28,782 nucleotides of DNA from a virus: positions 1 through 28,782 of IMG/VR virus record IMGVR_UViG_3300017917_000938. One strand, 5' to 3'. Position 1 is the first letter of the stretch. Each line of letters starts with the position of its first letter. The position numbers were made by a program, and so were the translations under genes. The notes below the pieces were generated by a model. That model was not told the DNA's origin and searched no databases. It saw nothing but the letters and a program-made list of their open reading frames with translations. Shown here piece after piece: positions 3,121 through 28,561 of the stretch.

Positions 3121-4473
3121 ATGAGTGGTAATATAAGTACAAAAAAAATAGTAACAGACGGTTTAGTATTACATTTAGATGCTGCTAATAATAAATCTTA
3201 TGTTAGTGGTAGTACTACATGGAATGATTTAACTAATTTAAATAATACCTCTTCATTAACAAATAGTCCAACATTTAGTAGTGATAATGCCGGAGGCATT
3301 GTATTTGATGGAATAGACGATTATATAGCATTGCCAGCAATAGATACAAATAATAATTTTACATTATCTTTTTGGGTAATGAGAACTAATGATACATTCA
3401 CAACTATAATTGCGGGAGTTAATGCGACTGGATATTTGCAAGTAAGAAGTGGAGCTCTAAGTGTATCATTAGTAAAATCATGGGTAGTAGAATTAGGAAA
3501 TTTTGGCATCACCTCAGGAGTATCTAAAGATACAATAAACAATATTGTAATTACTAAAAATGGAACTACATTTAGTGCATATATTAATGGAAAATTTATA
3601 GGTAATTTAACAGTTAACCAAACGTTTACAACGTCAGCACCAACATTAGGAAGGAATTATAATTTAAATGAACCTTTTTCAGGTAGATATTATATATTTA
3701 GCTATTATAATAGAAAATTAACAGACTCTGAAATTTCTCAAAATTATAACGCATTAAGAGGTAGATTCAATCTAGGACCAACTCCGGATGTTATTATAAA
3801 GTCTGATACATTATTTAATGTAGATGCATCTAATAGTACATCATATCCAGGAAGTGGAACAACTTGGTTTGATTTGGGTGATTACAAATTTAATGGTTCA
3901 TTGAAAAATGGTGTAACATATAATAGTAGTAATGGAGGAAGTTTATATTTAGACGGTGGAAGCCAGAGAATAGAATTTGATGCTGGTACACTTTATACTA
4001 ATGATGCAGATTACACATTCAATGTATGGTTTAAAAATGATAATTTTTCGGAAATTAAATATGTAATGCATAGAGGAAGAAACCATACTGCAAATGGTTG
4101 GAGTTTAATGTTAACTTTAAATACTACAGGTAAAGCTGTAGCATCTGTTGTATATACATCACCGTCAGTTGTTAGTTTGAGTACATCTACGGGTCCATCA
4201 ACGTTATCTTTAAATACTTGGTATCATATTACTGGAGTTTGGAAACAAGGAGTTGGTATTTATTGTTATGTTAATGGAGTATTGGAAGGTAGTGCAACAA
4301 CAACTGGTACAATTTTACGCTCAAGTTCACTTTATGGTTGGGTATTGGGTTCAATAGATACATCAACTTACACTAGTGGGTATTATGGGTCGGCTAAAGT
4401 TAATTTTAGAGCATTGACCGATGCTGAAATACTAGCAGATTTTAATGCAACTAAAACAAGATTTGGATACTAA
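3121..4473 (+). CDS. Double LamG-domain adhesin
   Basis: This 450-aa protein contains two LamG-like domains. Domain 1 (about 12-215) has DGLVLHLDAANNKSY, IVFDGIDDYIALP, FSAYINGKFIGN and YNRKLTDSEISQNYNALRGRFNL. Domain 2 (about 226-450) has DTLFNVDASNSTSYPGSGTTW, LYLDGGSQRIEF, IYCYVNGVLEGS and FRALTDAEILADFNATKTRFGY. The linker is short and acidic/proline-containing (GPTPDVII). The ATG lies two bases after the previous stop. The end of domain 1 still matches the natural C-terminus of the single-domain gene at 1101, which supports origin by tandem fusion. It is a likely receptor- or glycan-binding virion protein. Confidence 0.8.
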   Translation: MSGNISTKKIVTDGLVLHLDAANNKSYVSGSTTWNDLTNLNNTSSLTNSPTFSSDNAGGIVFDGIDDYIALPAIDTNNNFTLSFWVMRTNDTFTTIIAGVNATGYLQVRSGALSVSLVKSWVVELGNFGITSGVSKDTINNIVITKNGTTFSAYINGKFIGNLTVNQTFTTSAPTLGRNYNLNEPFSGRYYIFSYYNRKLTDSEISQNYNALRGRFNLGPTPDVIIKSDTLFNVDASNSTSYPGSGTTWFDLGDYKFNGSLKNGVTYNSSNGGSLYLDGGSQRIEFDAGTLYTNDADYTFNVWFKNDNFSEIKYVMHRGRNHTANGWSLMLTLNTTGKAVASVVYTSPSVVSLSTSTGPSTLSLNTWYHITGVWKQGVGIYCYVNGVLEGSATTTGTILRSSSLYGWVLGSIDTSTYTSGYYGSAKVNFRALTDAEILADFNATKTRFGY

Positions 4474-4486
4474 AAATAATAAAAAT

Positions 4487-4753
4487 ATGGAACAACTAAA
4501 CAACTATCAAGACAGAACATTCATGATATTTAATGTATCAGAATTAAATAAAATTGATTTTACACAAGTACTAGAAACATCTGAAGAAACAGTAAGAAAA
4601 TCAGTAGATGAAACAAAAACTTTTGTAAAATGGGAAGGACAAATACCAGAATGTGTAGACACATTAACAACAAAAGAAGGACCATACACATATGAAGAAA
4701 TGTTAGCATTGATGGCTACACCAGAATGGAATAATCCTATCGTTATGTCATAA
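4487..4753 (+). CDS. Small conserved phage protein of unknown function
   Basis: This is an 88-aa protein. I chose the ATG at 4487 rather than the in-frame ATG at 4445, because 4487 follows an A-rich leader (TAAAAATAATAAAAAT) after the previous stop, as for the neighbours, whereas 4445 lies inside the LamG gene. The sequence has an N-terminal segment RTFMIFNVSELNKIDF, a central TKTFVKWEGQIP, and a C-terminal GPYTYEEMLALMATPEWNNP. I recognise this only as a type of small ORF that sits among tail-fibre genes of marine T4-like phages. No membrane segment or catalytic motif is visible. It might be a fibre-assembly or attachment factor, but that is a guess from position. Confidence 0.65.
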   Translation: MEQLNNYQDRTFMIFNVSELNKIDFTQVLETSEETVRKSVDETKTFVKWEGQIPECVDTLTTKEGPYTYEEMLALMATPEWNNPIVMS

Positions 4754-8255: not shown

Positions 8256-8675
8256 ATGGAAATCAATTATCAGTGGGTAATCTCACAAATGGACTCAAAA
8301 CCGAAAGAAGGTGAATTAACTGATGTAGTAATAACAGTACATTGGCGTAGAAATGCAACAACAACCGTTGATGATAAAACTTATTTTGCAGACGTTTATG
8401 GCGCACAAAATTTCACACAAACATCAAGTGAAAACTTTACCCCATACGACCAACTAACTTATGAACAAGTTTGCGGTTGGTTAGAAAACGCATTAGATGT
8501 ACCAGCTATGGATCAAAGTTTAGTAGGTCAATTAGAGAATCAAATTAACCCACCAGTAATAGTTTTACCATTACCTTGGGAACCAACGCCAACACCTACA
8601 CCAACTCCAACGCCTACACTAACTCCAACACCTACACCGGAACCAACACCAACACCTACACCGGATAATATATAA
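8256..8675 (+). CDS. DUF7936-like protein with Thr-Pro repeat tail
   Basis: This is a 139-aa protein. Residues 1-105 resemble a small conserved domain known from T4-like cyanophages (as I recall, DUF7936): YQWVISQMDSKPKEGELTDVV, ITVHWRR, then FTPYDQLTYEQVCGWLENALD and QLENQINPPV. The C-terminal part (about 109-136) is a low-complexity run of PTPT repeats with a few Glu/Leu interruptions, likely an extended, possibly surface-exposed stalk. It lies three bases after the S74 fibre stop with an A-rich leader. Homologues also sit next to fibre genes, so a fibre-associated or assembly role is plausible. The biochemical function is unknown. Confidence 0.7.
   Translation: MEINYQWVISQMDSKPKEGELTDVVITVHWRRNATTTVDDKTYFADVYGAQNFTQTSSENFTPYDQLTYEQVCGWLENALDVPAMDQSLVGQLENQINPPVIVLPLPWEPTPTPTPTPTPTLTPTPTPEPTPTPTPDNI
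8579..8662 (+). repeat. Thr-Pro coding microsatellite-like repeat
   Basis: A run of degenerate 6- and 12-base units (CCAACNCCTACN type) encodes about 14 Pro-Thr pairs, interrupted by Glu and Leu codons. Copy-number change in multiples of six bases would keep the reading frame, so the tail length of this protein could vary among relatives. Confidence 0.7.
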
Positions 8676-18111: not shown

Positions 18112-21100
18112 ATGTCAATATTTAAAAGCACATTTACTAAAGAAGTAAAGGAACAATTAGCAGTAAGACAAAAAGCCATTGCTAATCGTACACCGGAATC
18201 AATACAATACATTAATTCTCGTAATTCATGGATTAGAATGACTTCTAGTGTTAATGTAAATGGTTCTGCTGACTTAGCTAAACAATACGTTTTATTAGGT
18301 GGTACTTCAGATAACGGCAAATTAAGATCTGGGGTTGGAAGTAAAAACGAAGCATACTCAACAGTATCACCTGGTGGTAATCCACATTTAAGAGGTATTA
18401 GACCAATGCCTGGTATAACATCAATAGAAGTTAAATCAAAGTCAGCATATGGTTCATTAAGAGAGGTAACAGTAAATTTTCAATGCTGGGACATAGAACA
18501 ACTACAAGATTTAGAAGTTCTATATATGAGACCAGGATACACAGCATTAATAGAATGGGGGTGGTTTCCATATCTAGATAACGCTGGAAAATTAATAACT
18601 ACATTTCCTGGTTTTTATGATATATTAAATAAACCACAAACAAATAGAACAGAACTATTTAAAGCATTATATCAAAAATCATTAGATAGTAGTGGAAACT
18701 ACGATGCTATGTTTGGATATATTAAAAACTACCAATGGTCTGCTAGACCAGATGGAGGTTATGATTGTACAACAACATTAGTTTCTACTGGGGAGATAAT
18801 TGAATCCCTAAAAATAAATTATATATTACCTGATAAAGCAGAACTAAATACAAAAACTGAATTATTAGCTAACGATTTTATAGTTTCTGAAAAGAAAAAA
18901 GATTGGCTATCCGAGTATCAAAAAAATATAGTAGCAGGAGTATGGGCTGAGGCTTTATTTAAACTCAAAGCACCAGGAGTAACTATTTCTCCTAGTTCAG
19001 TCTTTTACAATAAAACAGCAAATATACCATTATCTTATTCCTCAACTGATGGTACTAATGAAAAAAATAACATATCTAATGATGGAACTCAAGTATATGT
19101 TACTTTAGAATGTGTGATAGACGTACTTAATAAGCATGTTATTGCTAAATCAAAAACTGATGGAGAACCGTTAGTAAAATTATCAATATATTCAAAAGAA
19201 TTAAACAGCAACGGAAGTAATGATTTATATTGTGTAGCACATCCTTTACAAGTATCAGTGGACCCAGGAGTATGTTTAATTAAAAGTCCATTATGGTATA
19301 ATGGTGGTCAATCAACTATAATTGAACAAACAAGAGAAAATGTAAGTGCTGATCCTGAAGTACAAACGGCTAGTGGTTCTTTTGAATTAATTAAAAAGGG
19401 TTGGGAAGGTAGCTGGATTAACCCCACTGATGAAAATTCATTATTGAAAGGTATTGAAATGATAACTAGTCAAAAGGTATACAACATAGTTGAAAATTAT
19501 ATTAAAAAATCTAAAAGTGAAAGTGGATATGGTAGTTTAGAAGAAGTTCTTAATGGTGAATTAGGTAGTGGAGATTTAGAATTAGCAAACAAAATAAAAG
19601 ATCATTTAGAAAAAAATGTACTATCAACAGCAGGAAAATTAACAGTTATTGTAACTCCTGAATTAATAACATATTCTGATAAAGCAGGAAATATAGTAGA
19701 AGTAAAATCAACTAAAAATGTTAAAAAAATAGAAATTAACCGTACATTTTCTTTAGATGAATCAGCAGGGTTTGCTCAAGTTATTATAGGTTCTAAATCT
19801 ACTCAAGCTATAGCTGCTTTAGATTTTTTAAAGAATCTATCATTAGATTATTTTTATAAAAATGAATATAGTGAAATAGGAATTATAAAAAATATCTATG
19901 TAAATGTTGATTATCTTTATCAAAAAGCAATAGATGTTAATATTGAAATAGGAGATAATAAAGAAAAAAATGAAATTAGTTTATACACTTATTTGAAAAC
20001 CATAATAAGAGATATTCAAATATCTATAGGTAATTTAAATTCATTTGAAATTCATGTTGACCCTAACGATAACAATGTTGCTAGAATAATAGATATAAAT
20101 TATACAGAACCAGAAAAAGCTACATATAAAAACCTATTTGAATTACAAGTACACAATCTACAATCAGTAGTGAGGTCTTATAGTATGCAGTCTCAAATAT
20201 TTCCTGATCAAAGTGCTACAATAGCTATTGGAGCCCAAGTAAAAGGAGGACAACTAGGGATGCAAACTAACACTATGATTGATTTTAATAGAAATCTAAC
20301 CGATAGAATCATTCTTGAAAAGGTAGATGGACAACAAAGTAGTACAAGTATAAATAACAACAACCCTACTATTACTAATGGCATATCTCAAATAGTAGAG
20401 GCATTTGCTGCCTTTAATGAAAAATCTGTAGAACCTAACAATAAAATAGATTATAGCAAACTTGTAGCAAATGCTAAAAATTCTTTAAGAGATGTAATAA
20501 AATATTTCCAATCAGTAACACGATCACCAGGTAGTAATAGAAACTTAATACCAATTAAATTATCATTGGAAATGGATGGTATTAGTGGTTTAGTAATAGG
20601 ACATATGTTTAAATTACCTAAAAATGTAGTACCTAAAGGATATAGAGGAGATGGGAATGTAGGTTCTCAATTAGGAAATGTTATAACTTCTATTGGTCAT
20701 ACTATTGGAAATGGAGATTGGGTAACTAAAATAGATACATTAAATGTAGTATTAGAAACATATGATGGAATTTTATTTGGAGGACTAAATTTAGATATAG
20801 TAAAAGAAATAATAAATATAGGAACTACAAATGATAACATAAAAACAACGGAGACAAATAGATACTCAGCTTCTTCTGTAGCTCCTATATCAAATTATTT
20901 GTTTGGTAAAGCAGTATCATTTGATGGTAATAAACCTGGTGAAGGAATAAATTCATTACCACATGAAAATTGGGGAGGTTTAAAACCAATATGGCAGAAC
21001 TCTAATGGATGGGATATAGCTAATGAAGCTGGTACTCCAATATATGCTTTGTTTGATGGTATTGTATCTAAAGTTTCATTTTATGAAAATAATAATACCG

Positions 21101-21330
21101 TTTGGGGATATTCAATGACTATAAATGGAAAAGATAATAAAGTATTTATTACCCATATGGATAGTGTAGTGGTGAATGATGGATCAACAGTAAAAAAAGG
21201 ACAATTAGTTGGTTTTGTAGGATTATGGCCTATCAGATATGCTAGATTGCATTTTTACCCTCATACACATATAGCACTTGAAAAAGGAAAATTAAGCCAG
21301 TATGTAACAAACAACCTTCAGCTAAAATGA
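18112..21330 (+). CDS. Giant baseplate hub protein with C-terminal M23-like peptidase domain
   Basis: This is a 1072-aa protein. The N-terminal part (about 80-200) contains GNPHLRGIRPMPGITSIEVKS and VTVNFQCWDIEQLQDLEVLYMRPG; the middle carries long helices and beta segments. The region about 815-880 (SLEMDGISGLVIGHMFKLP ... SIGHTIGNGDWVTKIDTLNVVLE) resembles the hub fold of gp27/gpD proteins. The C-terminal 130 residues are LytM/M23-like: GWDIANEAGTPIYALFDGIV, VFITHMDSVVVNDGSTVKKGQLVGFVG and HTHIALEKG. His1015 and His1051-x-His1053 are present, but the HxGxD motif reads SNGWD (Ser964, Asp968), so a zinc-ligand His is missing. It is the likely cell-puncturing hub with a wall-binding or wall-degrading tip. 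Confidence 0.8.
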   Translation: MSIFKSTFTKEVKEQLAVRQKAIANRTPESIQYINSRNSWIRMTSSVNVNGSADLAKQYVLLGGTSDNGKLRSGVGSKNEAYSTVSPGGNPHLRGIRPMPGITSIEVKSKSAYGSLREVTVNFQCWDIEQLQDLEVLYMRPGYTALIEWGWFPYLDNAGKLITTFPGFYDILNKPQTNRTELFKALYQKSLDSSGNYDAMFGYIKNYQWSARPDGGYDCTTTLVSTGEIIESLKINYILPDKAELNTKTELLANDFIVSEKKKDWLSEYQKNIVAGVWAEALFKLKAPGVTISPSSVFYNKTANIPLSYSSTDGTNEKNNISNDGTQVYVTLECVIDVLNKHVIAKSKTDGEPLVKLSIYSKELNSNGSNDLYCVAHPLQVSVDPGVCLIKSPLWYNGGQSTIIEQTRENVSADPEVQTASGSFELIKKGWEGSWINPTDENSLLKGIEMITSQKVYNIVENYIKKSKSESGYGSLEEVLNGELGSGDLELANKIKDHLEKNVLSTAGKLTVIVTPELITYSDKAGNIVEVKSTKNVKKIEINRTFSLDESAGFAQVIIGSKSTQAIAALDFLKNLSLDYFYKNEYSEIGIIKNIYVNVDYLYQKAIDVNIEIGDNKEKNEISLYTYLKTIIRDIQISIGNLNSFEIHVDPNDNNVARIIDINYTEPEKATYKNLFELQVHNLQSVVRSYSMQSQIFPDQSATIAIGAQVKGGQLGMQTNTMIDFNRNLTDRIILEKVDGQQSSTSINNNNPTITNGISQIVEAFAAFNEKSVEPNNKIDYSKLVANAKNSLRDVIKYFQSVTRSPGSNRNLIPIKLSLEMDGISGLVIGHMFKLPKNVVPKGYRGDGNVGSQLGNVITSIGHTIGNGDWVTKIDTLNVVLETYDGILFGGLNLDIVKEIINIGTTNDNIKTTETNRYSASSVAPISNYLFGKAVSFDGNKPGEGINSLPHENWGGLKPIWQNSNGWDIANEAGTPIYALFDGIVSKVSFYENNNTVWGYSMTINGKDNKVFITHMDSVVVNDGSTVKKGQLVGFVGLWPIRYARLHFYPHTHIALEKGKLSQYVTNNLQLK

Positions 21331-21858: not shown

Positions 21859-23145
21859 ATGAGTTTTTACATTATAGAGCGTTCTGATCAGCTCTCAAAA
21901 CTAGGTCCCTTTAACGACTGCTTTGTTCGTTTCATTCCTAAAAGCAACAAATACCATCCCGCATTAACAACATTAAGTTTAGTCTATGTTAGACCACTTG
22001 ATGGAAAAAAAGGATTTATACTATGTATAAACCATAGTGAATCGTTTAGCTTATCTAAGGATGAAGCAATACAATTTCTACTAAACAATACTAAGCGTTT
22101 ATTTGTTTTAGATAAAAAACAATCACGCTATTGGTTTAATTATCCTAAAAAATTATATGATGTTAATTTTATTGAACATATCAATATAACAACAACATCA
22201 TGTACTGATTATTACTATAATAAACATAGTGATCTACCTAATATCAACTGTCTGATCCCCATTAGTAAACATTATGAAGAATGTGAGAATACTTTTGATA
22301 AAGTACAACAAATACTAACAGGAAATTGGCAAACGCCTCAATTTGAATTTAACAACAACTATACATCTAATGTATTTTATCAGCTCGAATCAAACGGTTT
22401 AAAGCTAGATAAAGACAGCTTTATCACTTACTATAGAGACAAATTGCCACATCCAGAATTCAGTTTATCTCGCGGAAAAATACACACATACTATAATTTA
22501 TATACAACAACATCAAGACCATCTAATGTATTCAATAGTATTAATTTTGCAGCATTAAACAAAGATAATGGTGAAAGATTATGCTATGTGCCTGAAAACG
22601 ATAAATTTATAGAACTAGACTTTCAGGGGTATCATCCACGTTTAATTGGTGAATTAGTTGATTTTCATTTTCCTAAAGACAGAAACACATATGATTATTT
22701 AGGTGAAATATTAGGCGTAACGCAACAGGAGGCTAAGGAATTAACGTTTAAGCAATTATACGGTGGTGTTTGGACTGAATATCAATCAAAACCGTTTTTT
22801 GAAAAGGTAGTTGCGTATACTGATGATATGTGGGATACGTATCAATATGAAAAGAAATATACTACTAAAAGTAAAACATTTACGCCCGACGCTGATATTA
22901 ATAAAAGTAAATTATTAAGTTACGTAATACAAAGCTACGAAACATCAACTAATGTTCAGTTACTAACATTAGTATTAGATTATTTAAAAGATAAAAAAAC
23001 TAAAATTGTATTATATACATATGATGCATTTTTATTTGATTATAGTGAAGAAGACGGAGATATTATAAAAGATATAATAAATATATTACATTATCCCGTA
23101 ACAATTAAACAAGGTAAAACGTATCACGGTTTAGAAAAAATTTAA
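21859..23145 (+). CDS. Divergent short family A DNA polymerase
   Basis: This is a 428-aa protein. The C-terminal half has all three PolA motifs. Motif A is IELDFQGYHPR (Asp254 and Arg261 in DxxxxxxR spacing). Motif B is QQEAKELTFKQLYGG (Lys293, Phe297, Tyr301 in K-x3-F-x3-Y spacing). Motif C is YTYDAFLFD (Asp389). Compared with Klenow, the motif A steric-gate Glu is His259, the O-helix Arg is Gln289, and the motif C His and Glu are Tyr388 and Ala390. The N-terminal 150 residues may be a degenerate 3'-5' exonuclease fold without its acidic motif. A typical PolA Klenow unit is about 600 aa, so this one is compact. It could replicate, repair or act on special primers; activity is likely but not certain. 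It lies downstream of the tail genes with no ATATTTAT element. Confidence 0.75.
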   Translation: MSFYIIERSDQLSKLGPFNDCFVRFIPKSNKYHPALTTLSLVYVRPLDGKKGFILCINHSESFSLSKDEAIQFLLNNTKRLFVLDKKQSRYWFNYPKKLYDVNFIEHINITTTSCTDYYYNKHSDLPNINCLIPISKHYEECENTFDKVQQILTGNWQTPQFEFNNNYTSNVFYQLESNGLKLDKDSFITYYRDKLPHPEFSLSRGKIHTYYNLYTTTSRPSNVFNSINFAALNKDNGERLCYVPENDKFIELDFQGYHPRLIGELVDFHFPKDRNTYDYLGEILGVTQQEAKELTFKQLYGGVWTEYQSKPFFEKVVAYTDDMWDTYQYEKKYTTKSKTFTPDADINKSKLLSYVIQSYETSTNVQLLTLVLDYLKDKKTKIVLYTYDAFLFDYSEEDGDIIKDIINILHYPVTIKQGKTYHGLEKI

Positions 23146-23154
23146 ATATTTATT

Positions 23155-23571
23155 ATGGATAATATATTTTTTGATTTGAGCAGACTATTTTGTACATTTG
23201 CGGCATTTGACGAGTTAGAGAACGTAGTTTCTACTATTAATCGTCGTTATTCAATATTATATAATAAAATATTTATTCTTGAATCGCCACAAAGCGATGA
23301 ATTAATATGTACCTATAATATTGATATGGGAAATACATCCGATGTTCCCCTACCTAACACAATATTACTTCATCGTAAGAAGGAATCTAATACGTTATAT
23401 ACCATCAATGCATTAAACACATTGATTAAATCACTTAATAATGGTAGATTAGATAAAAACTATATAGTTAATTGGAATGATTATAAGAATAGCATACTAT
23501 TAACTAATGGTCCTGACTTGCGTAAGCTAGACACAGCTATTTATAAAATTATAGATTTATCCGCCCATTAA
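23155..23571 (+). CDS. Hypothetical protein next to polymerase (138 aa)
   Basis: This 138-aa protein starts nine bases after the polymerase gene. It has an alpha/beta look: MDNIFFDLSRLFCTFAAFDELENVV, KIFILESPQSDELICTYNID, NTILLHRKKESNTLYTINALNTLIKSLNNG and NWNDYKNSILLTNGPDLRKLDTAIYKIIDL. The TINALNxLIKxLNxG and DLRKLDTxIYKI segments look conserved in type with small ORFs of T4-like phages, but I know of no function. The ATG overlaps an ATATTTATT string at 23146-23154, probably by chance. Its placement suggests co-expression with the polymerase. Confidence 0.65.
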   Translation: MDNIFFDLSRLFCTFAAFDELENVVSTINRRYSILYNKIFILESPQSDELICTYNIDMGNTSDVPLPNTILLHRKKESNTLYTINALNTLIKSLNNGRLDKNYIVNWNDYKNSILLTNGPDLRKLDTAIYKIIDLSAH

Positions 23572-23572
23572 C

Positions 23573-24460
23573 ATGAATGTATTTAATTTTTTTAAATTCT
23601 TAGAAGATAAAGAAAACAGAAAAATACCCGGTAGGGCTAAAATACTAGATCCTAACTATGTATTTGATGTAAATGATTTTATAGATGGAGAGGGAGATAT
23701 AGATTTACAAGGATACAAAAGATCTATACTACTACCTGACAATTTAACTGTAGAAGGTAGTTTGCTATTAGGTTCTACACCTATTGAATCATTACCGGAT
23801 AATTTAACTGTAGCAGGTAGTCTTAGTTTAGCTTATTGCCAAAATCTACAATCACTACCTAACAATTTAAAGGTAGGAGATTTACTTGATTTACATAAGT
23901 GTGAAAATCTACAATCACTACCTGACAATTTAACTGTAGGAGGTGATCTTGATTTATCTTTTTGCATAAATCTACAATCATTACCGAACAACTTAACTGT
24001 AGGAGGTAATCTTGATTTATCTTTTTGCGAAAATTTACAATCACTACCTGACAATTTAACTGTAGGTGGTACTCTTGTTTTAGCTAGTTGTAAAAGTTTA
24101 CAATCACTACCTGACAATTTAACAAGAGTAAAAGGTGATTTTGATTTACGGGAGTGTGAAAATCTACAATCACTACCTGACAACTTAACTGTAGGAGGTC
24201 ATCTTGATTTATCTTTTTGCACAAATCTACAATCACTACCTGACAATTTAACTGTAGGTGGTACTCTTGTTTTAGATTATTGTAAAAGTTTACAATCACT
24301 ACCTGACAATTTAACAGTACACGGTAATATTTATGTGTACCATACACCATTATCAAAAAAATACACAGAAGAAGAAATTAAACAAATGTGCCCTGATGTT
24401 ATAGGAGATATAATTGGAGCTAAAAGCAATGAATCAAGAAGAAACACACGAAACCCATGA
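23573..24460 (+). CDS. Cys-type leucine-rich-repeat protein 1 (10 repeats)
   Basis: This is a 295-aa protein. Residues 1-50 form a head (VFNFFKFLEDKENRKIPGRAK, DPNYVFDVNDFIDGEGDIDL) shared with three later genes. Ten 21-residue LRRs follow, with consensus LQSLPDNLTVGGxLxLxxCxN, giving a column of Cys at the same repeat position (SFC, HKC, ASC, REC). The tail TPLSKKYTEEEIKQMCPDVIGDI is also shared. It ends AKSNESRRNTRNP, a read-through compared with its relatives, overlapping the next start by ATGA. LRRs are protein-binding scaffolds; no signal peptide is present, so it acts in the cytoplasm or inside the virion. The partner is unknown. Confidence 0.85.
   Translation: MNVFNFFKFLEDKENRKIPGRAKILDPNYVFDVNDFIDGEGDIDLQGYKRSILLPDNLTVEGSLLLGSTPIESLPDNLTVAGSLSLAYCQNLQSLPNNLKVGDLLDLHKCENLQSLPDNLTVGGDLDLSFCINLQSLPNNLTVGGNLDLSFCENLQSLPDNLTVGGTLVLASCKSLQSLPDNLTRVKGDFDLRECENLQSLPDNLTVGGHLDLSFCTNLQSLPDNLTVGGTLVLDYCKSLQSLPDNLTVHGNIYVYHTPLSKKYTEEEIKQMCPDVIGDIIGAKSNESRRNTRNP
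23731..24324 (+). repeat. 63-nt LRR-coding repeats in LRR gene 1
   Basis: About ten 63-nt units with high DNA similarity (CTACAATCACTACCTGAC, then AATTTAACTGTAGGAGGT in most). One unit is 66 nt because of an extra codon (LTRVKG). The 110 bases at 24110-24219 recur at 24814-24923 in LRR gene 2 with two differences. Near-identity of units at DNA level points to recent duplication or gene conversion. Confidence 0.85.
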
Positions 24461-25155
24461 CCGTACTTAATTTTTTCAAATTTTTAGAAGATAAAGAAGA
24501 TAGAGCAATACCTCCTAGGGCTAGATTAGCTTTAGATCCTGACTATGTGTTTGATGTAAAGGACTTTGAAGATAAAGATGGAAATGTAAGACTAAGTGGA
24601 AATCCTAACATTATTTCTATTCCTACTAATAATCTAACTGTGAAAGGTTATCTTGAGTTAGCTGATTGCAGAAAACTACAATCATTACCTAATAATTTAA
24701 TTGTAGGTGACTACCTTGATTTATCTTTTTGCATAAATTTACAATCACTACCAGATAATCTAAATGTAGGTAGGCAAATTTATTTAAAAGGTTGTAAAAG
24801 TTTACGATCATTACCTGACAATTTAACAAGAGTAAAAGGTAGTTTTGATTTACGGGAGTGTGAAAATCTACAATCACTACCTGACAACTTAACTGTAGGA
24901 GGTCATCTTGATTTATCTTTTTGTAAAAGTTTACAATCACTACCTGACAATTTAACAGTACACGATGTTTATTTAGATTATACTTCTATTGAAACACTAC
25001 CTAAAGACTTAAAAATACACGGTAATATTTTTATGTACAATACCCCATTATCAAAAAAATACACAGAAGAAGAAATTAGACAAATGTGTCCTGGTATTAA
25101 AGGAGACATATATGGAGCTAAAGGAGCAAAAACTACTAACATATTTACAAATTAA
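24457..25155 (+). CDS. Cys-type leucine-rich-repeat protein 2 (7 repeats)
   Basis: This is a 232-aa paralogue of the gene at 23573. The head MTVLNFFKFLEDKEDRAIPP and DPDYVFDVKDFEDKDGNVRL is almost the same as in the genes at 25877 and 26556. About seven LRR units follow, including the LTRVKGSFDLRECEN unit shared with gene 1, then a unit without the Cys (YLDYTSIETLPKDL), then the tail TPLSKKYTEEEIRQMCPGIKGDIYGAKGAK. The ATG is within ATGA of gene 1. The function is unknown; the fold suggests binding of another protein. Confidence 0.85.
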   Translation: MTVLNFFKFLEDKEDRAIPPRARLALDPDYVFDVKDFEDKDGNVRLSGNPNIISIPTNNLTVKGYLELADCRKLQSLPNNLIVGDYLDLSFCINLQSLPDNLNVGRQIYLKGCKSLRSLPDNLTRVKGSFDLRECENLQSLPDNLTVGGHLDLSFCKSLQSLPDNLTVHDVYLDYTSIETLPKDLKIHGNIFMYNTPLSKKYTEEEIRQMCPGIKGDIYGAKGAKTTNIFTN

Positions 25156-25165
25156 AAAATAATAA

Positions 25166-25873
25166 ATGATACAACTACTACCAATCCTACTTGAATCACT
25201 AAATGAAGCATCAATTGAACAGCTTCAACAAATTTATGTAGATAAAAACATAATATCTAGTGAAGATTTTGAAGCTATTAAAAAAGCTACTAACAATAAA
25301 GGAGCATATGCTACCTGGTTAGCTAAAAAAGTAGCAGATAAAATAATTAAAGCTGAAGACATTTACAAATATGAAGAATATTTTAAAATATTTGATAAAT
25401 ATAGAGCCAAATACCCATTAAAGGATATCAACCAGTACAAAACTAAAAGCGACGTCCAATCTTTTATAGAAACAACAACTGGTATAAAAGATAATCTAAC
25501 TAAGGTTACAGGAGGACAGAGTACAGAACCTAGTAAAAATCTAGTTCCTATAAAAGGAGTAGAAGAATTAAAATCAGTTGGTATTTCTCTTTTAGGAATA
25601 GTTGATGGATATCAATGTTTTAAAGTTCCAAGTTCATTAGAAGGAAATGAAGCAGCATGGAAAATTTATAGAAAATGGTTAGCAAGATGTGGTGGAAGAG
25701 GAGAAGGAGAATCAATAGAAATTTGTACTATGGGTAGTTTTGGTCATTTTAATACATACATAGCAAAAGGTCCTCTCTATGTATTTTTTAATATGAATGA
25801 TAATCTATCCCCATATCAATTCAGCTATGAAACCAACCAATTTATGGATAAAAATGATAAGGAATTGATATAA
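25166..25873 (+). CDS. Unrecognised protein between LRR genes (235 aa)
   Basis: This 235-aa protein sits between LRR genes 2 and 3. The N-terminus MIQLLPILLESLNEA is a short amphipathic/hydrophobic helix like those of the genes at 24457 and 27247. A helical region follows (QLQQIYVDKNIISSEDFEAIKKATNNKGAYATWLAKKVADKII), then a linker with TGGQSTEPSKN. A second domain (about 125-235) has GYQCFKVPSSLEGNEAAWKIYRKWLARCGG, SIEICTMGSFGHFNTYIAKGPLYVFF and SPYQFSYETNQFMDKND. I do not recognise the family. The second domain could be a small enzyme or recognition module, but no catalytic signature is clear. It lies four bases upstream of LRR gene 3 and may function with it. Confidence 0.7.
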   Translation: MIQLLPILLESLNEASIEQLQQIYVDKNIISSEDFEAIKKATNNKGAYATWLAKKVADKIIKAEDIYKYEEYFKIFDKYRAKYPLKDINQYKTKSDVQSFIETTTGIKDNLTKVTGGQSTEPSKNLVPIKGVEELKSVGISLLGIVDGYQCFKVPSSLEGNEAAWKIYRKWLARCGGRGEGESIEICTMGSFGHFNTYIAKGPLYVFFNMNDNLSPYQFSYETNQFMDKNDKELI

Positions 25874-25876
25874 ATT

Positions 25877-26485
25877 ATGACCGTACTTGATTTTTTCAAA
25901 TTTTTAGAAGACAAGGAAGATAGAGCAATACCTCCTAGGGCTAGATTAGCTTTAGATCCTGACTATGTGCTTGATGTAAATGATTTTATAGATGAAAATG
26001 GAGATATAGATTTAAGTGGAAATCCTAACATTATTTCTATTCCTGTTGATAGTTTAACAGTGAAAGGTAATCTTGATTTACAAAGATGTAAAAATCTACA
26101 ATCATTACCTAACAATTTAAAGGTAGGAGGTTTACTTGATTTAATGTATTGTGAAAATCTACGATCACTACCGGACAACTTAAAAGTAGGTAGGCAAATT
26201 TATTTAAGAGGTTGTAAAAGTTTACAATCACTACCTGACAACTTAGATGTAGGAGGTAATCTTGATTTACCTTTTTGCATAAATCTACAATCATTACCGA
26301 ACAACTTAACTGTAGAAGGTGATCTTTATTTAGATTATTGCACAAATCTACAATCACTACCTGACAATTTAACAGTACACGGTGATGTTTATATGTACCA
26401 TACCCCATTATCAAAAAAATACACAGAAGAAGAAATTAAACAAATGTGCCCTGGTATTAAAGGAGACATATATGGAGGGAGCTAA
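25877..26485 (+). CDS. Cys-type leucine-rich-repeat protein 3 (6 repeats)
   Basis: This is a 202-aa paralogue with the head MTVLDFFKFLEDKEDRAIPP, DPDYVLDVNDFIDENGDIDL and SGNPNIISIPVDSLTVKGNL. It has about six LRR units (LQRCKN, MYCEN, RGCKS, PFCIN, DYCTN) and the tail TPLSKKYTEEEIKQMCPGIKGDIYGGS. It is the shortest of the four; relative to gene 2 it lacks the LTRVKG unit. The ending IYGGS arises from an extra short insertion (GGAGGGAGC) that brings in an early TAA compared with gene 1. The function is unknown, and the same scaffold interpretation applies. Confidence 0.85.
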   Translation: MTVLDFFKFLEDKEDRAIPPRARLALDPDYVLDVNDFIDENGDIDLSGNPNIISIPVDSLTVKGNLDLQRCKNLQSLPNNLKVGGLLDLMYCENLRSLPDNLKVGRQIYLRGCKSLQSLPDNLDVGGNLDLPFCINLQSLPNNLTVEGDLYLDYCTNLQSLPDNLTVHGDVYMYHTPLSKKYTEEEIKQMCPGIKGDIYGGS

Positions 26486-26490
26486 AAGCA

Positions 26491-26559
26491 ATGAATAAAG
26501 AAGAAACACACAAAACCAACATTTATTGGATCTACTTAAAGTATAAACAAAAACTATGA
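26491..26559 (+). CDS. Possible 22-aa peptide between LRR genes 3 and 4
   Basis: ATG 26491 opens a 22-codon frame, MNKEETHKTNIYWIYLKYKQ then KL, whose TGA overlaps the ATG of LRR gene 4. A clear relative lies after LRR gene 1 (24429-24470, MNQEETHETHDRT), truncated where the head of gene 2 begins. The shared peptide start and the overlap favour a real or formerly real small gene, but expression is unproven. An ACATTTATTGG string lies within it (26519-26529). Confidence 0.35.
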   Translation: MNKEETHKTNIYWIYLKYKQKL

Positions 26560-27245
26560 CCGTACTTAATTTTTTTAAATTTTTAGAAGACAAGGAAGAT
26601 AGAGCAATACCTCCTAAGGCTAGATTAGCTTTAGATCCTGACTATGTTTTTAATATAAATGATTTTATAGATAAAAACGGAGATATAGATTTAAGTGATA
26701 ATCCCAACATTATTTCTATTCCTGTTGATAGTTTAACAGTGAAAGGTAATCTTAATTTACACAGATGTAAAAATCTACAATCATTACCTAACAATTTAAA
26801 GGTAGGAGGTAATCTTCATTTAATGTATTGTGAAAATCTACAATCACTACCTGACAACTTAAAAGTAGGTCGTCATATTATTTTAGCTCATTGTAAAAGT
26901 TTACGATCATTACCTGACAACTTGAGAGTAGTAAATGGTACCCTTGATTTAATGGGTTGTAAAAATTTACAATCACTGCCTAATAACTTAACAACAATAG
27001 GATACAACCTTCTTATATCAGGCAATTCTAATATACAATCATTACCGAACAACTTAACTGTAGAAGGTGATCTTTATTTAGCAGATTGTACAAATCTACA
27101 ATCATTACCTGATAATTTAACTGTAGGAGGTGGTCTTTATATAAGAAGTACTCCTATAGCAAATAAATACACAGTCGACGAAATTCGACAAATGTATCCT
27201 GGAATTAAAGGAAAAATATCTGGATTTAAAAGAATAAAAAAATAA
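26556..27245 (+). CDS. Cys-type leucine-rich-repeat protein 4 (7 repeats)
   Basis: This is a 229-aa paralogue with the head MTVLNFFKFLEDKEDRAIPP, DPDYVFNINDFIDKNGDIDL and SDNPNIISIPVDSLTVKGNL. It has about seven LRR units, including variants not seen in the others: RVVNGTLDLMGCKN, and TTIGYNLLISGNSN, where Asn-rich SGN replaces the Cys column. Its tail (TPIANKYTVDEIRQMYPGIKGKISGFKRIKK) has diverged, with the Cys of QMCP changed to Tyr, and ends basic. It is followed one base later by the ParB-like small gene. It is the most diverged copy at the C-terminus. Confidence 0.85.
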   Translation: MTVLNFFKFLEDKEDRAIPPKARLALDPDYVFNINDFIDKNGDIDLSDNPNIISIPVDSLTVKGNLNLHRCKNLQSLPNNLKVGGNLHLMYCENLQSLPDNLKVGRHIILAHCKSLRSLPDNLRVVNGTLDLMGCKNLQSLPNNLTTIGYNLLISGNSNIQSLPNNLTVEGDLYLADCTNLQSLPDNLTVGGGLYIRSTPIANKYTVDEIRQMYPGIKGKISGFKRIKK

Positions 27246-27246
27246 C

Positions 27247-27708
27247 ATGATTAAGCTACTAGACATATTAAACGAAATCACAACCCAATTCGATAATTGG
27301 CGTGTACCTCCAGTACAGCAGCTTAAACAAGAATATCGAATAGAACATGAACTAAAGGGTAATGATTTCTTTAATGATGAATCTGAATTTCTAGATGCTG
27401 TCAACAACGGAAAAATAATAACGGTTACACCACAAATAGATGCTTCTATAGATTATAGAAGCGGAACATCTTCATATGATGAATTATTAGATCTGATTAA
27501 ATCTTATCGTTCATATCCTAAATATAGAAATGAAGATGTATTAAAATCTATATATGATGGGTTTAAGACTAACCAACCAATGGATCTACCTATTATAATA
27601 GAATTTACAGACGGATACAAACGTATATTCTCTGGAAACACAAGAATGGATATAGCATTCCAATTAGGAATCAATCCTAAAGCTCTACTGATAAAAAGCA
27701 CTATATAG
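27247..27708 (+). CDS. Small protein with ParB/sulfiredoxin-like segment
   Basis: This 153-aa protein starts MIKLLDILNEITTQFDNW, a short hydrophobic helix like that of the gene at 25166. The last 45 residues (MDLPIIIEFTDGYKRIFSGNTRMDIAFQLGINPKALLI) resemble the ParB/Srx-type core, in which a beta strand, a GNTR loop and a helix with LG form the nucleotide-binding pocket. Only this single domain is present, with no helix-turn-helix. It could be a small nuclease/CTPase-like or kinase-like enzyme, or merely a fold relative. It follows LRR gene 4 by one base, so it is probably in the same transcript. Confidence 0.65.
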   Translation: MIKLLDILNEITTQFDNWRVPPVQQLKQEYRIEHELKGNDFFNDESEFLDAVNNGKIITVTPQIDASIDYRSGTSSYDELLDLIKSYRSYPKYRNEDVLKSIYDGFKTNQPMDLPIIIEFTDGYKRIFSGNTRMDIAFQLGINPKALLIKSTI

Positions 27709-27754
27709 GATTGTCAGAGTTTTAGTTGTACATTTAATCAAAAATAAAAAGGTT

Positions 27755-28561
27755 ATGAATGAACAACGTAAACGCGGTCGTCCCCGCTCAAACTCCATCG
27801 ACTATGTTATTAAAACTGGATTTGATGCTGAACAAGTTACCACTAAACGTGGTTGGGATTTAAAATTCAGTAATGACATTTTTGTCCCTTTAAAAACTAA
27901 TTCTGAACTTGATGTAATATTAAGTACAGAGGGTGGAATAATGCCAGCTACTAACATGGTACTTGTTGGTGGACCTGGGTCAGGTAAATCAACAGTAGCA
28001 TTAGATATGCTATCTAATCTAGTGCAACAAGGTTATAAATGCTTATATATCTCAGCAGAGATGGATGAAATTGCATATTTTAAATACTGTCGTCGTATTC
28101 CTAAATTTTCATGTATTCCTGTATTATTTTTAACTAACTACACTAATCATTTACGACCTACATTAGAACATGTATTTGATGAAGGTTATGATGTTATCGT
28201 AATAGATTCTATTGCTGAGGTTATAGATTCATATAAAATTGAATATCGCACAACTGAAAGTGCTGCTGAAAAATGGTTCCTTGAGCTACAAGAAAAACAT
28301 AAAAAAGGAAACAACAGTAAAAACTACTATACTACATTTGTTAACATACAACAAGTAACTAAAGCAGGTGAATTTGTAGGATCAAATAGATTAAAACATA
28401 TGACTGACGCTATGTGTCATATTGATTATTCAAAAGATAAACTAGAGCGTAGCATGTATTTTAGCAAAAACCGTGATTGTGATAAAGATTTTAAAATATT
28501 CTTCGCTATTAGTAAAGAAAATGTATATTATTCATACGCTGAACAAAAAGAAAACGATTAA
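27755..28561 (+). CDS. RadA-like RecA-fold ATPase with N-terminal AT-hook
   Basis: This is a 268-aa protein. The N-terminus MNEQRKRGRPRSNS contains KRGRPR (residues 6-11), an AT-hook-type DNA minor-groove binder. The RecA core follows: Walker A GGPGSGKST (72-80), Walker B DVIVIDS (Asp151), and the RadA-specific stretch QQVTKAGEFVGSNRLKHMTDAM (about 199-220, compare VTKEGxIAGPKxLEHMVD). A KNR motif (Lys238-Arg240) sits where RadA has KNRFG. Cellular RadA (about 460 aa) adds a C4 zinc finger and a Lon-like domain, both absent here. RadA acts as a DnaB-like helicase in recombination branch migration; this version probably does so in phage replication or recombination. The KNRFG variant (KNRDC) may alter DNA coupling. 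Confidence 0.8.
   Translation: MNEQRKRGRPRSNSIDYVIKTGFDAEQVTTKRGWDLKFSNDIFVPLKTNSELDVILSTEGGIMPATNMVLVGGPGSGKSTVALDMLSNLVQQGYKCLYISAEMDEIAYFKYCRRIPKFSCIPVLFLTNYTNHLRPTLEHVFDEGYDVIVIDSIAEVIDSYKIEYRTTESAAEKWFLELQEKHKKGNNSKNYYTTFVNIQQVTKAGEFVGSNRLKHMTDAMCHIDYSKDKLERSMYFSKNRDCDKDFKIFFAISKENVYYSYAEQKEND

Follow-up and report, generated by a model that had tools for sequence, protein, structure and literature searches.

The four complete leucine-rich repeat (LRR) genes, A to D, that lie with one interposed non-LRR gene at 23573-27245 of the window (the whole viral stretch of 28,782 nt analysed here, IMG/VR record IMGVR_UViG_3300017917_000938) are, on comparison of their sequences, mosaics with whole units exchanged, and the differences among units are concentrated where the binding face is expected. 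Our favoured explanation, tentative and put at a little short of an even chance, is that they encode LRR binders whose surface is diversified by recombination and that would be loaded into the prohead and then ejected. Diversification in the window is well supported by the sequence comparisons, and virion loading of the LRR proteins is what we infer by analogy. If right, the explanation would join T4-style prohead-loaded, ejected proteins with the diversification, by recombination, of a binding face made of LRRs. Each of these two principles is already known; a literature search found no publication combining prohead-loaded ejection with such a diversified LRR face.

All window features given here are on the plus strand. 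On its left, the variable slot that holds the cluster is bounded by a conserved gene (23155..23571). By tblastn, 11 further contigs or records have a homologue of this gene, once three window pieces and two second copies of a contig already counted are taken off the 16 non-window loci. The content downstream of it differs among these 11, and in the annotation of Flavobacterium phage immuto its homologue comes after DNA polymerase A. The right edge of the window's slot is a RecA/DnaB/Sak4-like ATPase (27755..28561; Pfam KaiC-type ATPase 6e-11, PHROG 19 1.4e-12). Gene A (23573..24460, 295 aa) has 10 units, B (24457..25155, 232 aa, its first 4 nt overlapping the end of A) has 7, C (25877..26485, 202 aa) has 6 and D (26556..27245, 229 aa) has 7, in each case between a common head, head 1, and a tail, which is divergent in D. 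ORFs and unit counts thus agree with the four-gene family of 10, 7, 6 and 7 units described in the original prediction. The near-identical, in-frame 63-nt units of that description need qualification, since every unit is in frame but some are 57, 60 or 66 nt long, and near-identity holds for the best tracts only (94-97%), the TRF match of the period-63 arrays found in all four genes being 67-77%. Likewise, the heads are near-identical at the DNA level in B, C and D (86-93%) but not in A (75-79% to them), and the tail, taken as mostly constant, is 74-79% identical to the others in D. The description had also passed over the non-LRR gene inside the cluster, P0005 (25166..25873), an ORF with the leader MIQLLPILLE, for which searches of Pfam, PHROG, NCBIfam and PADLOC gave no match at E 0.01. 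Genes judged by eye to be P0005-like adjoin LRR genes in contigs L025, L067 and L083; in L103 and L111 such a gene forms a fusion with an LRR protein. P0006 (27247..27708), with the leader MIKLLDILNE and 34 related loci in viral contigs, follows D. When B was used as query all five matches fell within ORFs A-D, and five short probes (units, head, tail) gave 82 matches within A-D and three weak ones elsewhere (E 0.09-0.89).

Mosaic tracts between the paralogues bear out the predicted homologous exchange among arrays. A and B have heads 75.5% and tails 75.7% identical and a best array tract 96.8% identical over 126 nt (Fisher p 1.6e-7), part of which is an exact 81-nt match of A 24139..24219 to B 24843-24923, marking exchanged units. 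C and D are 95.2% identical over 126 nt at the array start and 74.1% in their tails (p 2.5e-5), and B and C are 97.5% identical in their tails and 81.7% at most in their arrays (p 3.7e-4), all of these p values being optimistic because the best windows were chosen. Because the units, about 63 nt long, stay in frame and the genes have heads and tails in common, homologous recombination or gene conversion can operate between them. Exchange between complete genes is enough to explain the arrays, with no need for VLR-type assembly or a DGR. A reverse transcriptase (PF00078) was found in 0 of 16 records, the window and fragments among them, and in 3 of 14 control genomes; by inspection, near-identical units differ at more than the A nucleotide positions, which also disfavours a DGR. 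The lamprey and hagfish VLR relies on an incomplete gene with flanking LRR donor cassettes and somatic assembly. The window genes resemble it in their LRR solenoid, constant ends and variable concave face on a conserved frame, but change by exchange between complete genes, without donor fragments. In a PDB sequence search the family profile matched VLRB (2o6s, E 1e-8) among others. VLR-like assembly, as earlier suggested, was therefore rejected for the window, where all genes are complete and no incomplete gene, orphan LRR fragment or donor-cassette reservoir was found.

For those units that are exactly 21 residues long, 17 of the 24 listed, pN was 0.522 on the concave face, and in the framework pN was 0.100 and pS 0.333. 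Nearest-neighbour N/S over all 24 units, with one codon dropped from each of seven 22-residue units, was 1.28 for the concave face and 0.28 for the framework. In related loci, counted over units fitting the 20-residue pattern only, concave N over all S exceeded 1 in 10 of 10 (range 1.35-13.6; 6.6 and 13.6 in the two loci of lowest synonymous divergence) and framework N over all S was below 1 in nine of the 10. It is thus well supported in the window, as far as sequence can tell, that the expected binding face diversifies while the framework stays conserved, in line with the variable binding surface that had been proposed. Against the favoured explanation count the concave N/S of just 1.28 in the window and the loci L064 and L074, where change at the few synonymous sites of the concave face exceeded that at its nonsynonymous sites.

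The favoured explanation envisages an Immutovirus-kind T4-like phage encoding a family of proteins built from an N-terminal leader or cap, an LRR solenoid variable on its concave side and a constant C-terminal cap, whole units being exchanged between genes by homologous recombination or gene conversion. The N-terminus would direct them to the core of the prohead in the way that the T4 capsid-targeting sequence directs internal proteins there. Ejected together with the DNA, the LRR proteins would bind targets in the host, of which variable defence components are the most plausible, and because such targets vary a reassorting surface would pay off. By analogy, we infer that the LRR proteins may work like the T4 internal proteins (IPI, IPII, IPIII, Alt), without asserting membership of that group. 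The clade is T4-like, its closest cultured relative being immuto, and the host is probably a member of the Bacteroidota. Immuto (MW353175), a phage of Flavobacterium sp. LMO8 from a Baltic mesocosm, has leader genes, for example those at 1803, 103806, 117631 and 118632, but a search by pattern found no LRR gene in it, which counts against the favoured explanation; a paper on Baltic Flavobacterium phages (PMC7077304) does not mention immuto. As in T4, a short N-terminal leader spans unlike proteins of the clade and is shared by LRR genes of the MIKL type. A search for an S77 prohead protease found it in 7 of 24 and 6 of 16 kin records (13/40, many being short fragments), in contig 3300005613_000311 directly upstream of an LRR gene. 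The internal proteins of T-even phages are described (PMC3012670) as a highly diverse defence set of which the targeting sequence alone is conserved. Unlike T4, the clade has more leader-bearing sequence groups and its putative LRR cargo is multi-copy and recombining; moreover, the window LRR heads are without the leader motif.

The leader MIKLxxILxE, whose codons vary synonymously, begins 62 of 602 distinct ORFs from 54 sources (the window plus 53 loci, L010 omitted), and these fall into 24 groups that blastp at 1e-4 does not link to one another. Among the carriers are a superoxide dismutase and a protein whose P-loop stretch is zeta-toxin-like. A more general leader motif was found on 58 of 227 close-clade ORFs versus 1 of 171 in unrelated contigs, and on 8 of 228 ORFs in 150 kb of T4, ipII, ipIII and gp24 among them. 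These enrichment counts take in P0006 and the LRR genes by which loci were chosen, and the unrelated set omits L095 and L109, chance-hit contigs taken for kin on the leader-like start of the matched protein. Low counts in L045 (0/12 ORFs) and in L047-L058 (14/159) speak against the reading. Among 32 distinct complete LRR ORFs (plus-strand, ATG-start, 100-399 aa, at least three pattern matches, the window's four included), 16 have head 1, 13 the MIKL leader and 3 another start; these limits leave out L067's sixth LRR gene, which starts with GTG, L010's second LRR gene, genes on the minus strand and fragments at contig edges. The MIKL leader and head 1 (FKFLE) alternate before the same tail, and L067 has both head types on its LRR genes. 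The presence of the leader on 24 groups, and as the alternative head of LRR genes, counts for the cargo reading and suggests that the constant head, previously seen as an exchange frame only, may be a portable N-terminal leader. If so, the leader would mark the 24 groups as candidate virion-carried proteins and offer a handle on many unknown genes of the clade.

Counting against the cargo reading, A-D are without the leader motif, the 2 matches among the window's 31 ORFs being P0005 and P0006. MIKL leaders end in L/I-x-E (e.g. ILKE, ILNE), the T4-type leader cleavage site, and head 1 reads KFLED, without it. In T4 as in giant phages, the cut is described as falling after Glu (PMC5694885). Head 1 is internal in the L103/L111 fusion, which weakens a universal leader role and, together with the missing L/I-x-E, makes an LRR cap a possible alternative. 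In AlphaFold2 models gene A forms a solenoid (mean pLDDT 90) with a helix at residues 3-14, and the head-1 helix (pLDDT about 77) is less disordered than the MIKL leader (about 50 over the first 20 residues in a model of an LRR protein of the MIKL type). On the other side, head 1 resembles the leader in outline, and its presence on one non-LRR protein, in L092, overturned the idea of a restriction to LRR proteins and counts for the cargo reading.

A further step, in which several LRR variants would be packed per virion and injected as a ready-made diversified set against variable defence proteins, amounting to a VLR-like viral repertoire, is conceivable, if doubtful. It is on balance unlikely, though a serious competitor of the cargo reading, that the diversified binders are made and act unpackaged in the infected cell, in counter-defence or host takeover, with the head as solenoid N-cap. 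This would agree with the features of head 1 just described and with the position of the window genes, which have a polymerase-like gene on one side and a recombination ATPase on the other and are not next to head genes. The distant likeness to injected bacterial LRR effectors would also fit an intracellular binder fold: SspH1 was among the matches of the PDB sequence search, and XopL and SlrP were matched far under their cut-offs, the best score against the curated effector families (XopL, XopAE, XopAC, SlrP, SspH2) being 36.7 bits versus cut-offs of 450-1243. Effectors of the LPX type (IpaH/SspH/SlrP/XopL) are delivered by bacteria into the host cell and share with the phage proteins short units of about 20-22 residues starting with LP. 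The window units differ in having Cys at the ladder position, in being phage-encoded and in having no further Pfam domain, and for the phage LRR proteins host-cell delivery is only proposed. An unpackaged role is less easily reconciled with an alternative head on the same LRR-tail body being the leader of 24 sequence groups.

Repeat gain and loss across relatives, which had been anticipated, was seen in half of the comparisons. Eight pairs of related contigs were informative, with complete genes in both partners and flank identity of 83-98.5%, and in four of them unit number differs: L076 and L080 (13 and 7 units, flanks 98.0% identical), L064 and L074 (10 and 7, 89.9%), L078 and L086 (8 and 3, 89.0%), and L066 and L071 (8 and 7, 83.4%). 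Gene length or unit number is constant in L082/L083, L097/L106, L103/L111 and L118/L119 (flanks 88-98.5%); L097/L106 and L118/L119 were scored by ORF length (195/196 and 146/147 aa), the unit pattern nonetheless counting 4 and 5 in L097/L106. The tally takes L071-L073 as one and L080/L081 as one, and omits L067/L096/L101 (ambiguous orthology of several genes), L105 and L088 (without a complete gene), and L074/L079 and L094/L100 (gene cut by a contig end). The visible part of L079 is colinear with L074. All four unchanged pairs are of the window's head-1 type, to which the claim of turnover between relatives therefore does not extend; this weighs the favoured explanation down and the unpackaged alternative up. 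Arrays identical in all relatives, or synonymous variation only, were not what was found.

Mostly neutral repeat turnover, with slippage or recombination copies, relaxed concave residues and no diversifying function, could account for these four unchanged pairs, for the near-neutral concave N/S of the window and for local copy multiplication, the second LRR gene of L072 matching the first one in L070, L071 and L073 at 99.5% identity. Arrays are also unchanged between near-identical contigs, namely L067/L077 (100% over 7,665 nt), L080/L081 and L070-L073 (99.9%), whose near-identity gives little information on turnover. Such neutrality is improbable, given the strongly constrained framework, the concave values above 1 in all ten other loci and the open reading frames wherever examined.

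Recombinational diversification is common among phage receptor binders, and tail and baseplate genes precede the cluster, as would suit virion-surface or tail adhesins for host receptors whose reshuffled arrays alter host range. An LRR-like ORF in the tail module of a Vibrio phage (10% HHpred probability according to its authors, PMC10945359) points the same way, yet this is the least probable reading, the proteins being small and almost entirely head, array and tail, and their genome position variable, for example beside the prohead protease or between recombinase and exonuclease genes.

General homology searches with A-D gave no Pfam model above the gathering cut-off and no further domain; the best PHROG match (6.7e-6) was a family of unknown function, and PADLOC had no match for the submitted LRR proteins. 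Bacterial genomes searched with an LRR query yielded 117 pattern-matching stretches, of which 0 were confirmed. The best PDB sequence match, 8z5u, is an LRR protein of a polar flagellar motor structure, and PDB and Foldseek matches give little information past an LRR solenoid. The best BFVD structural match (A0A6J7X691, TM 0.69, 36% identity) is, like others from uncultured Caudovirales, labelled 'Leucine-rich repeat' only, without function. The only isolate phages matched were Edwardsiella phage Edno5 (two records) and, with the MIKL type, EBPR podovirus 1.

The window, 28,782 bases and an entire IMG/VR virus record, is taken to be a genome fragment; it carries tail genes, a protein (18112-21330) that contains an M23 peptidase domain, a polymerase-like gene (21859-23145) and, at its right end, a RecA/DnaB/Sak4-like ATPase. 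The polymerase-like gene has no match in Pfam or PHROG and is named from its position, where the cultured Flavobacterium phage immuto (MW353175) has a gene annotated as DNA polymerase A. Between this side and the ATPase lie the LRR genes A (23573-24460), B (24457-25155), C (25877-26485) and D (26556-27245), with 10, 7, 6 and 7 units as in the original prediction. The non-LRR gene P0005 (25166-25873) lies within the cluster and P0006 (27247-27708) after it. The typical unit, LPDNLTVGGxLxLxxCxNLQS, has 21 residues, and unit, head and tail probes over the window found no copy outside A-D except three weak matches. The near-identity of the units claimed earlier does not hold uniformly (TRF matches 67-77%). 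Elsewhere, ORF 8256-8675 ends in a proline-threonine tract encoded by a hexanucleotide repeat (8582-8662).

Among 50,697 phage records, immuto records are the best matches of the window's sheath gene (protein identity 52.6% over 91%, E 8e-127; DNA of the sheath-tube stretch 71.4% over 55%), and we infer a Bacteroidota bacterium as host. The immuto record ends in the tail module and begins with DNA polymerase A, followed by a gene homologous (59% identity) to 23155-23571, one leader-bearing gene, a single-strand-binding protein and a recombinase, an order which defines a slot holding six genes in the window and one in immuto. Among the related viral contigs fetched for comparison (L numbers), the slot holds P0006 alone (L027), an 81-aa ORF, an LRR gene, a P0005-like gene and P0006 (L025), a P0005-like gene with three LRR genes (L083), a P0005-LRR fusion (L103, L111) or one other gene (L100). 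It is empty in L074 and L079, with an LRR gene immediately to its left, and in L097 and L106, with one farther right. The variable slot (window 23571-27755; immuto 1801-2426; L025, L027, L083, L100, L103) thus contains differing sets of mostly leader-bearing genes, bordered by the conserved gene beside polymerase A and by single-strand-binding/recombination genes.

Head, array and tail of A-D have different histories, and the sequences show the paralogues to be mosaics. DNA identities of head, tail and best 126-nt array window are 75.5, 75.7 and 96.8% for A-B, 89.9, 97.5 and 81.7% for B-C, and 92.5, 74.1 and 95.2% for C-D; Fisher p values of 1.6e-7 (A-B, head versus array), 3.7e-4 (B-C, array versus tail) and 2.5e-5 (C-D, tail versus array) are optimistic, since the array windows were the best found. 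The longest exact shared tract, 81 nt, links A at 24139 to B at 24843, and within A 3 nt distinguish unit 6 from unit 9. Units 1-3 of C match units 1-3 of D and unit 5 of C matches unit 6 of D, hence D has one extra unit ahead of the matching one. A stretch like CAATGAATNAAGAAGAAACACAC is common to 24427-24456, the DNA ahead of B which encodes a C-terminal extension of A, and 26486-26555, the non-coding spacer after C; exchanged cassettes therefore seem to reach past the ORFs.

Sequence comparison shows turnover of units in some relatives. In eight contig pairs whose two members each have complete LRR genes and whose flanks, with arrays masked, are 83-98.5% identical, the arrays differ in four and are unchanged in four. 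L076 and L080/L081 (flanks 98.0% identical over 6,062 nt and 99.1% in the longest stretch) have 13 versus 7 units in altered order within a large protein of 989 versus 869 aa, a difference of exactly six 20-residue units. The other changed pairs are L064 and L074 (10 versus 7 units, flanks 89.9%), L078 and L086 (8 versus 3, 89.0%) and L066 and L071-L073 (8 versus 7, 83.4%). Head 1, the FKFLE-type N-terminus of A-D, occurs in all four unchanged pairs, L082/L083 (98.5%), L103/L111 (98.1%), L118/L119 (93.9%) and L097/L106 (88.0%); in the changed pairs the gene starts with the MIKL head or another head, or the array is internal. Contigs 99.8-100% identical have the same arrays; the window and L025 (flank 78.8% over 1,823 nt) have four head-1 genes versus one MIKL-head gene. 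Three contigs of sample 3300005613 stop or start within an LRR gene (_000311 and _000130 at their ends, _000490 at its beginning), which would fit assembly breaks caused by repeats. The second LRR cassette of L072 (5401-6063) is 99.5% identical to the first (3991-4652) of L070, L071 and L073, and its product is identical to that of the first L072 cassette: a recent duplication or homogenisation. In L076 (2468-5437) the array is embedded in the 989-aa protein between flanks resembling separate kin proteins, with a WCT-like domain and a C-terminal ARHKC...W stretch.

The frames are open, and variability is concentrated on the expected binding (concave) face, taken in the window as positions 10, 12, 14, 15 and 17, at or beside the LxLxxC strand. 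Among 17 canonical window units, concave pN is 0.522 versus 0.100 elsewhere, and pS 0.193 versus 0.333. Nearest-neighbour units give 53 nonsynonymous (N) and 11 synonymous (S) differences on the concave face versus 34 and 36 in the framework (N over all S per site, 1.28 and 0.28). Ten related loci with 20-residue units (positions 10, 12, 14, 15) all have a concave ratio of N over all S between 1.35 and 13.6; the framework ratio is 0.40-0.99 in nine of them and 2.86 in L076. Against such a signal, when only the few synonymous sites of the concave face are used, pS is higher than pN in L064 (0.63 versus 0.36) and L074 (0.55 versus 0.38). As unit pairs are non-independent, L064 and L074 are related and positions were picked knowing the repeat type, the diversifying signal should be read as an indication rather than as the outcome of a formal test. 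Phage LRR proteins are already present in databases and a variable LRR-like ORF is described in one Vibrio phage (available part of PMC10945359). The accessible text of the Far-T4 paper (PMC4360716) mentions neither 'leucine' nor 'LRR', and literature listings that lacked most subscription papers and preprints gave no report connecting LRR proteins in phages to capsid targeting, to a prohead protease, or to diversification of a VLR-like or repeat-based kind.

Different heads sit on one LRR-tail body. The 32 distinct complete LRR ORFs in the fetched contigs comprise 16 with head 1 (FKF[LI]E), 13 with MIKLxxILxE, where another cap follows the leader, and 3 others; 29 pass a tail pattern like TPLxKKYTxEEIxxMxPGxKGxIY, and L067 has two head-1 and four MIKL-type genes. 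MIKLxxILxE is not LRR-specific: it starts 62 of the 602 distinct ORFs, which fall into 24 groups (no blastp link at 1e-4): 22 P0006, 14 LRR, 5 of another family and 21 single. Leader codons differ synonymously and the upstream 30 nt are unlike (33 starts read), hence the peptide appears to be under selection. The leader differs by phage, five genes of L046, including its P0006 homologue, starting like MKKIKLFEEFLNE and four of immuto like MENFDLKKFLVENK. Of ten leader bodies scanned, five either matched nothing, with the MIKL leader in front, or belonged to the same uncharacterised families. One body is an Fe/Mn superoxide dismutase (Sod_Fe_C, 1e-30; L037:700-1401, leader MIKLINLLTE), possibly a virion-carried enzyme. 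Leader-bearing proteins at L006:2704-3663 and L036:1478-2110 gave one short zeta-toxin match (28 residues, 2.4e-8, on a MIKL-leader body) and one ADP-ribosyltransferase match below cut-off (6.4e-4, with a related leader), the latter recalling T4 Alt.

A more general leader motif was found in 56 of 212 ORFs of L026-L040, versus 4.5 expected from shuffled N-termini and 2.8 from internal windows (58/227 with L025), about one match per locus (16) being built in by picking these loci through leader-bearing P0006. Other counts were 21/175 in the LRR loci L063-L088 (LRR genes included), 12/106 in L006-L012, 14/159 in L047-L058, 0/12 in L045, 13/219 in immuto and 1/171 in 12 unrelated contigs, two leader-like ones left out. 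The window's 31 ORFs gave two matches, P0005 and P0006, and none on the LRR heads of A-D. The eight matches among 228 T4 ORFs include ipII, ipIII and gp24 and miss ipI, alt, gp22 and gp23; the five others are, by annotation, not known head cargo.

In T4, a targeting sequence of about 10 residues at the N-terminus takes internal proteins into the head; it can bring in foreign proteins and is removed by the head protease (available parts of PMC7697877; PMC9958956). The internal proteins of T-even phages are described as highly varied defence proteins in which nothing but the targeting sequence is conserved (accessible part of PMC3012670). The MIKL-type leader is probably a comparable prohead-loading signal. 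Head protease family S77 occurs in 7/24 and 6/16 kin records, and in contig 3300005613_000311 an LRR gene directly follows it. AlphaFold2 gave a MIKL-type LRR protein pLDDT of about 50 over its first 20 residues, then a confident solenoid, and gave head 1 of A a helix at residues 3-14 (pLDDT about 77). Against prohead loading of A-D, their heads do not match the leader motif: head 1 (KFLED) carries Asp in place of the Glu of the other leaders. It also lies inside the L103/L111 P0005-LRR fusion, which itself starts MIRLKSLLFE; the 33 head-1 matches read were 22 N-terminal (some one gene in overlapping loci), 2 internal in fusions and 9 chance. One N-terminal match is on a non-LRR protein (L092) whose residues 27-140 match a PHROG of unknown function. 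Head 1 may thus combine a leader with a cap, or be a cap only. No virion data were found. More tentatively, head 1 might act like the MIKL leader, the LRR proteins might be ejected, and their targets might be variable host proteins.

P0005, which had no library match, has counterparts in L025 (5216-6001), L067 (4849-5598), L083 (2823-3461) and the L103 and L111 fusion ORFs; several share a CT...F..Y....P....F stretch, with WCT in some. These genes repeatedly adjoin LRR genes and are fused to one in L103/L111, and the P0005-like protein is likely a functional partner of the LRR protein.
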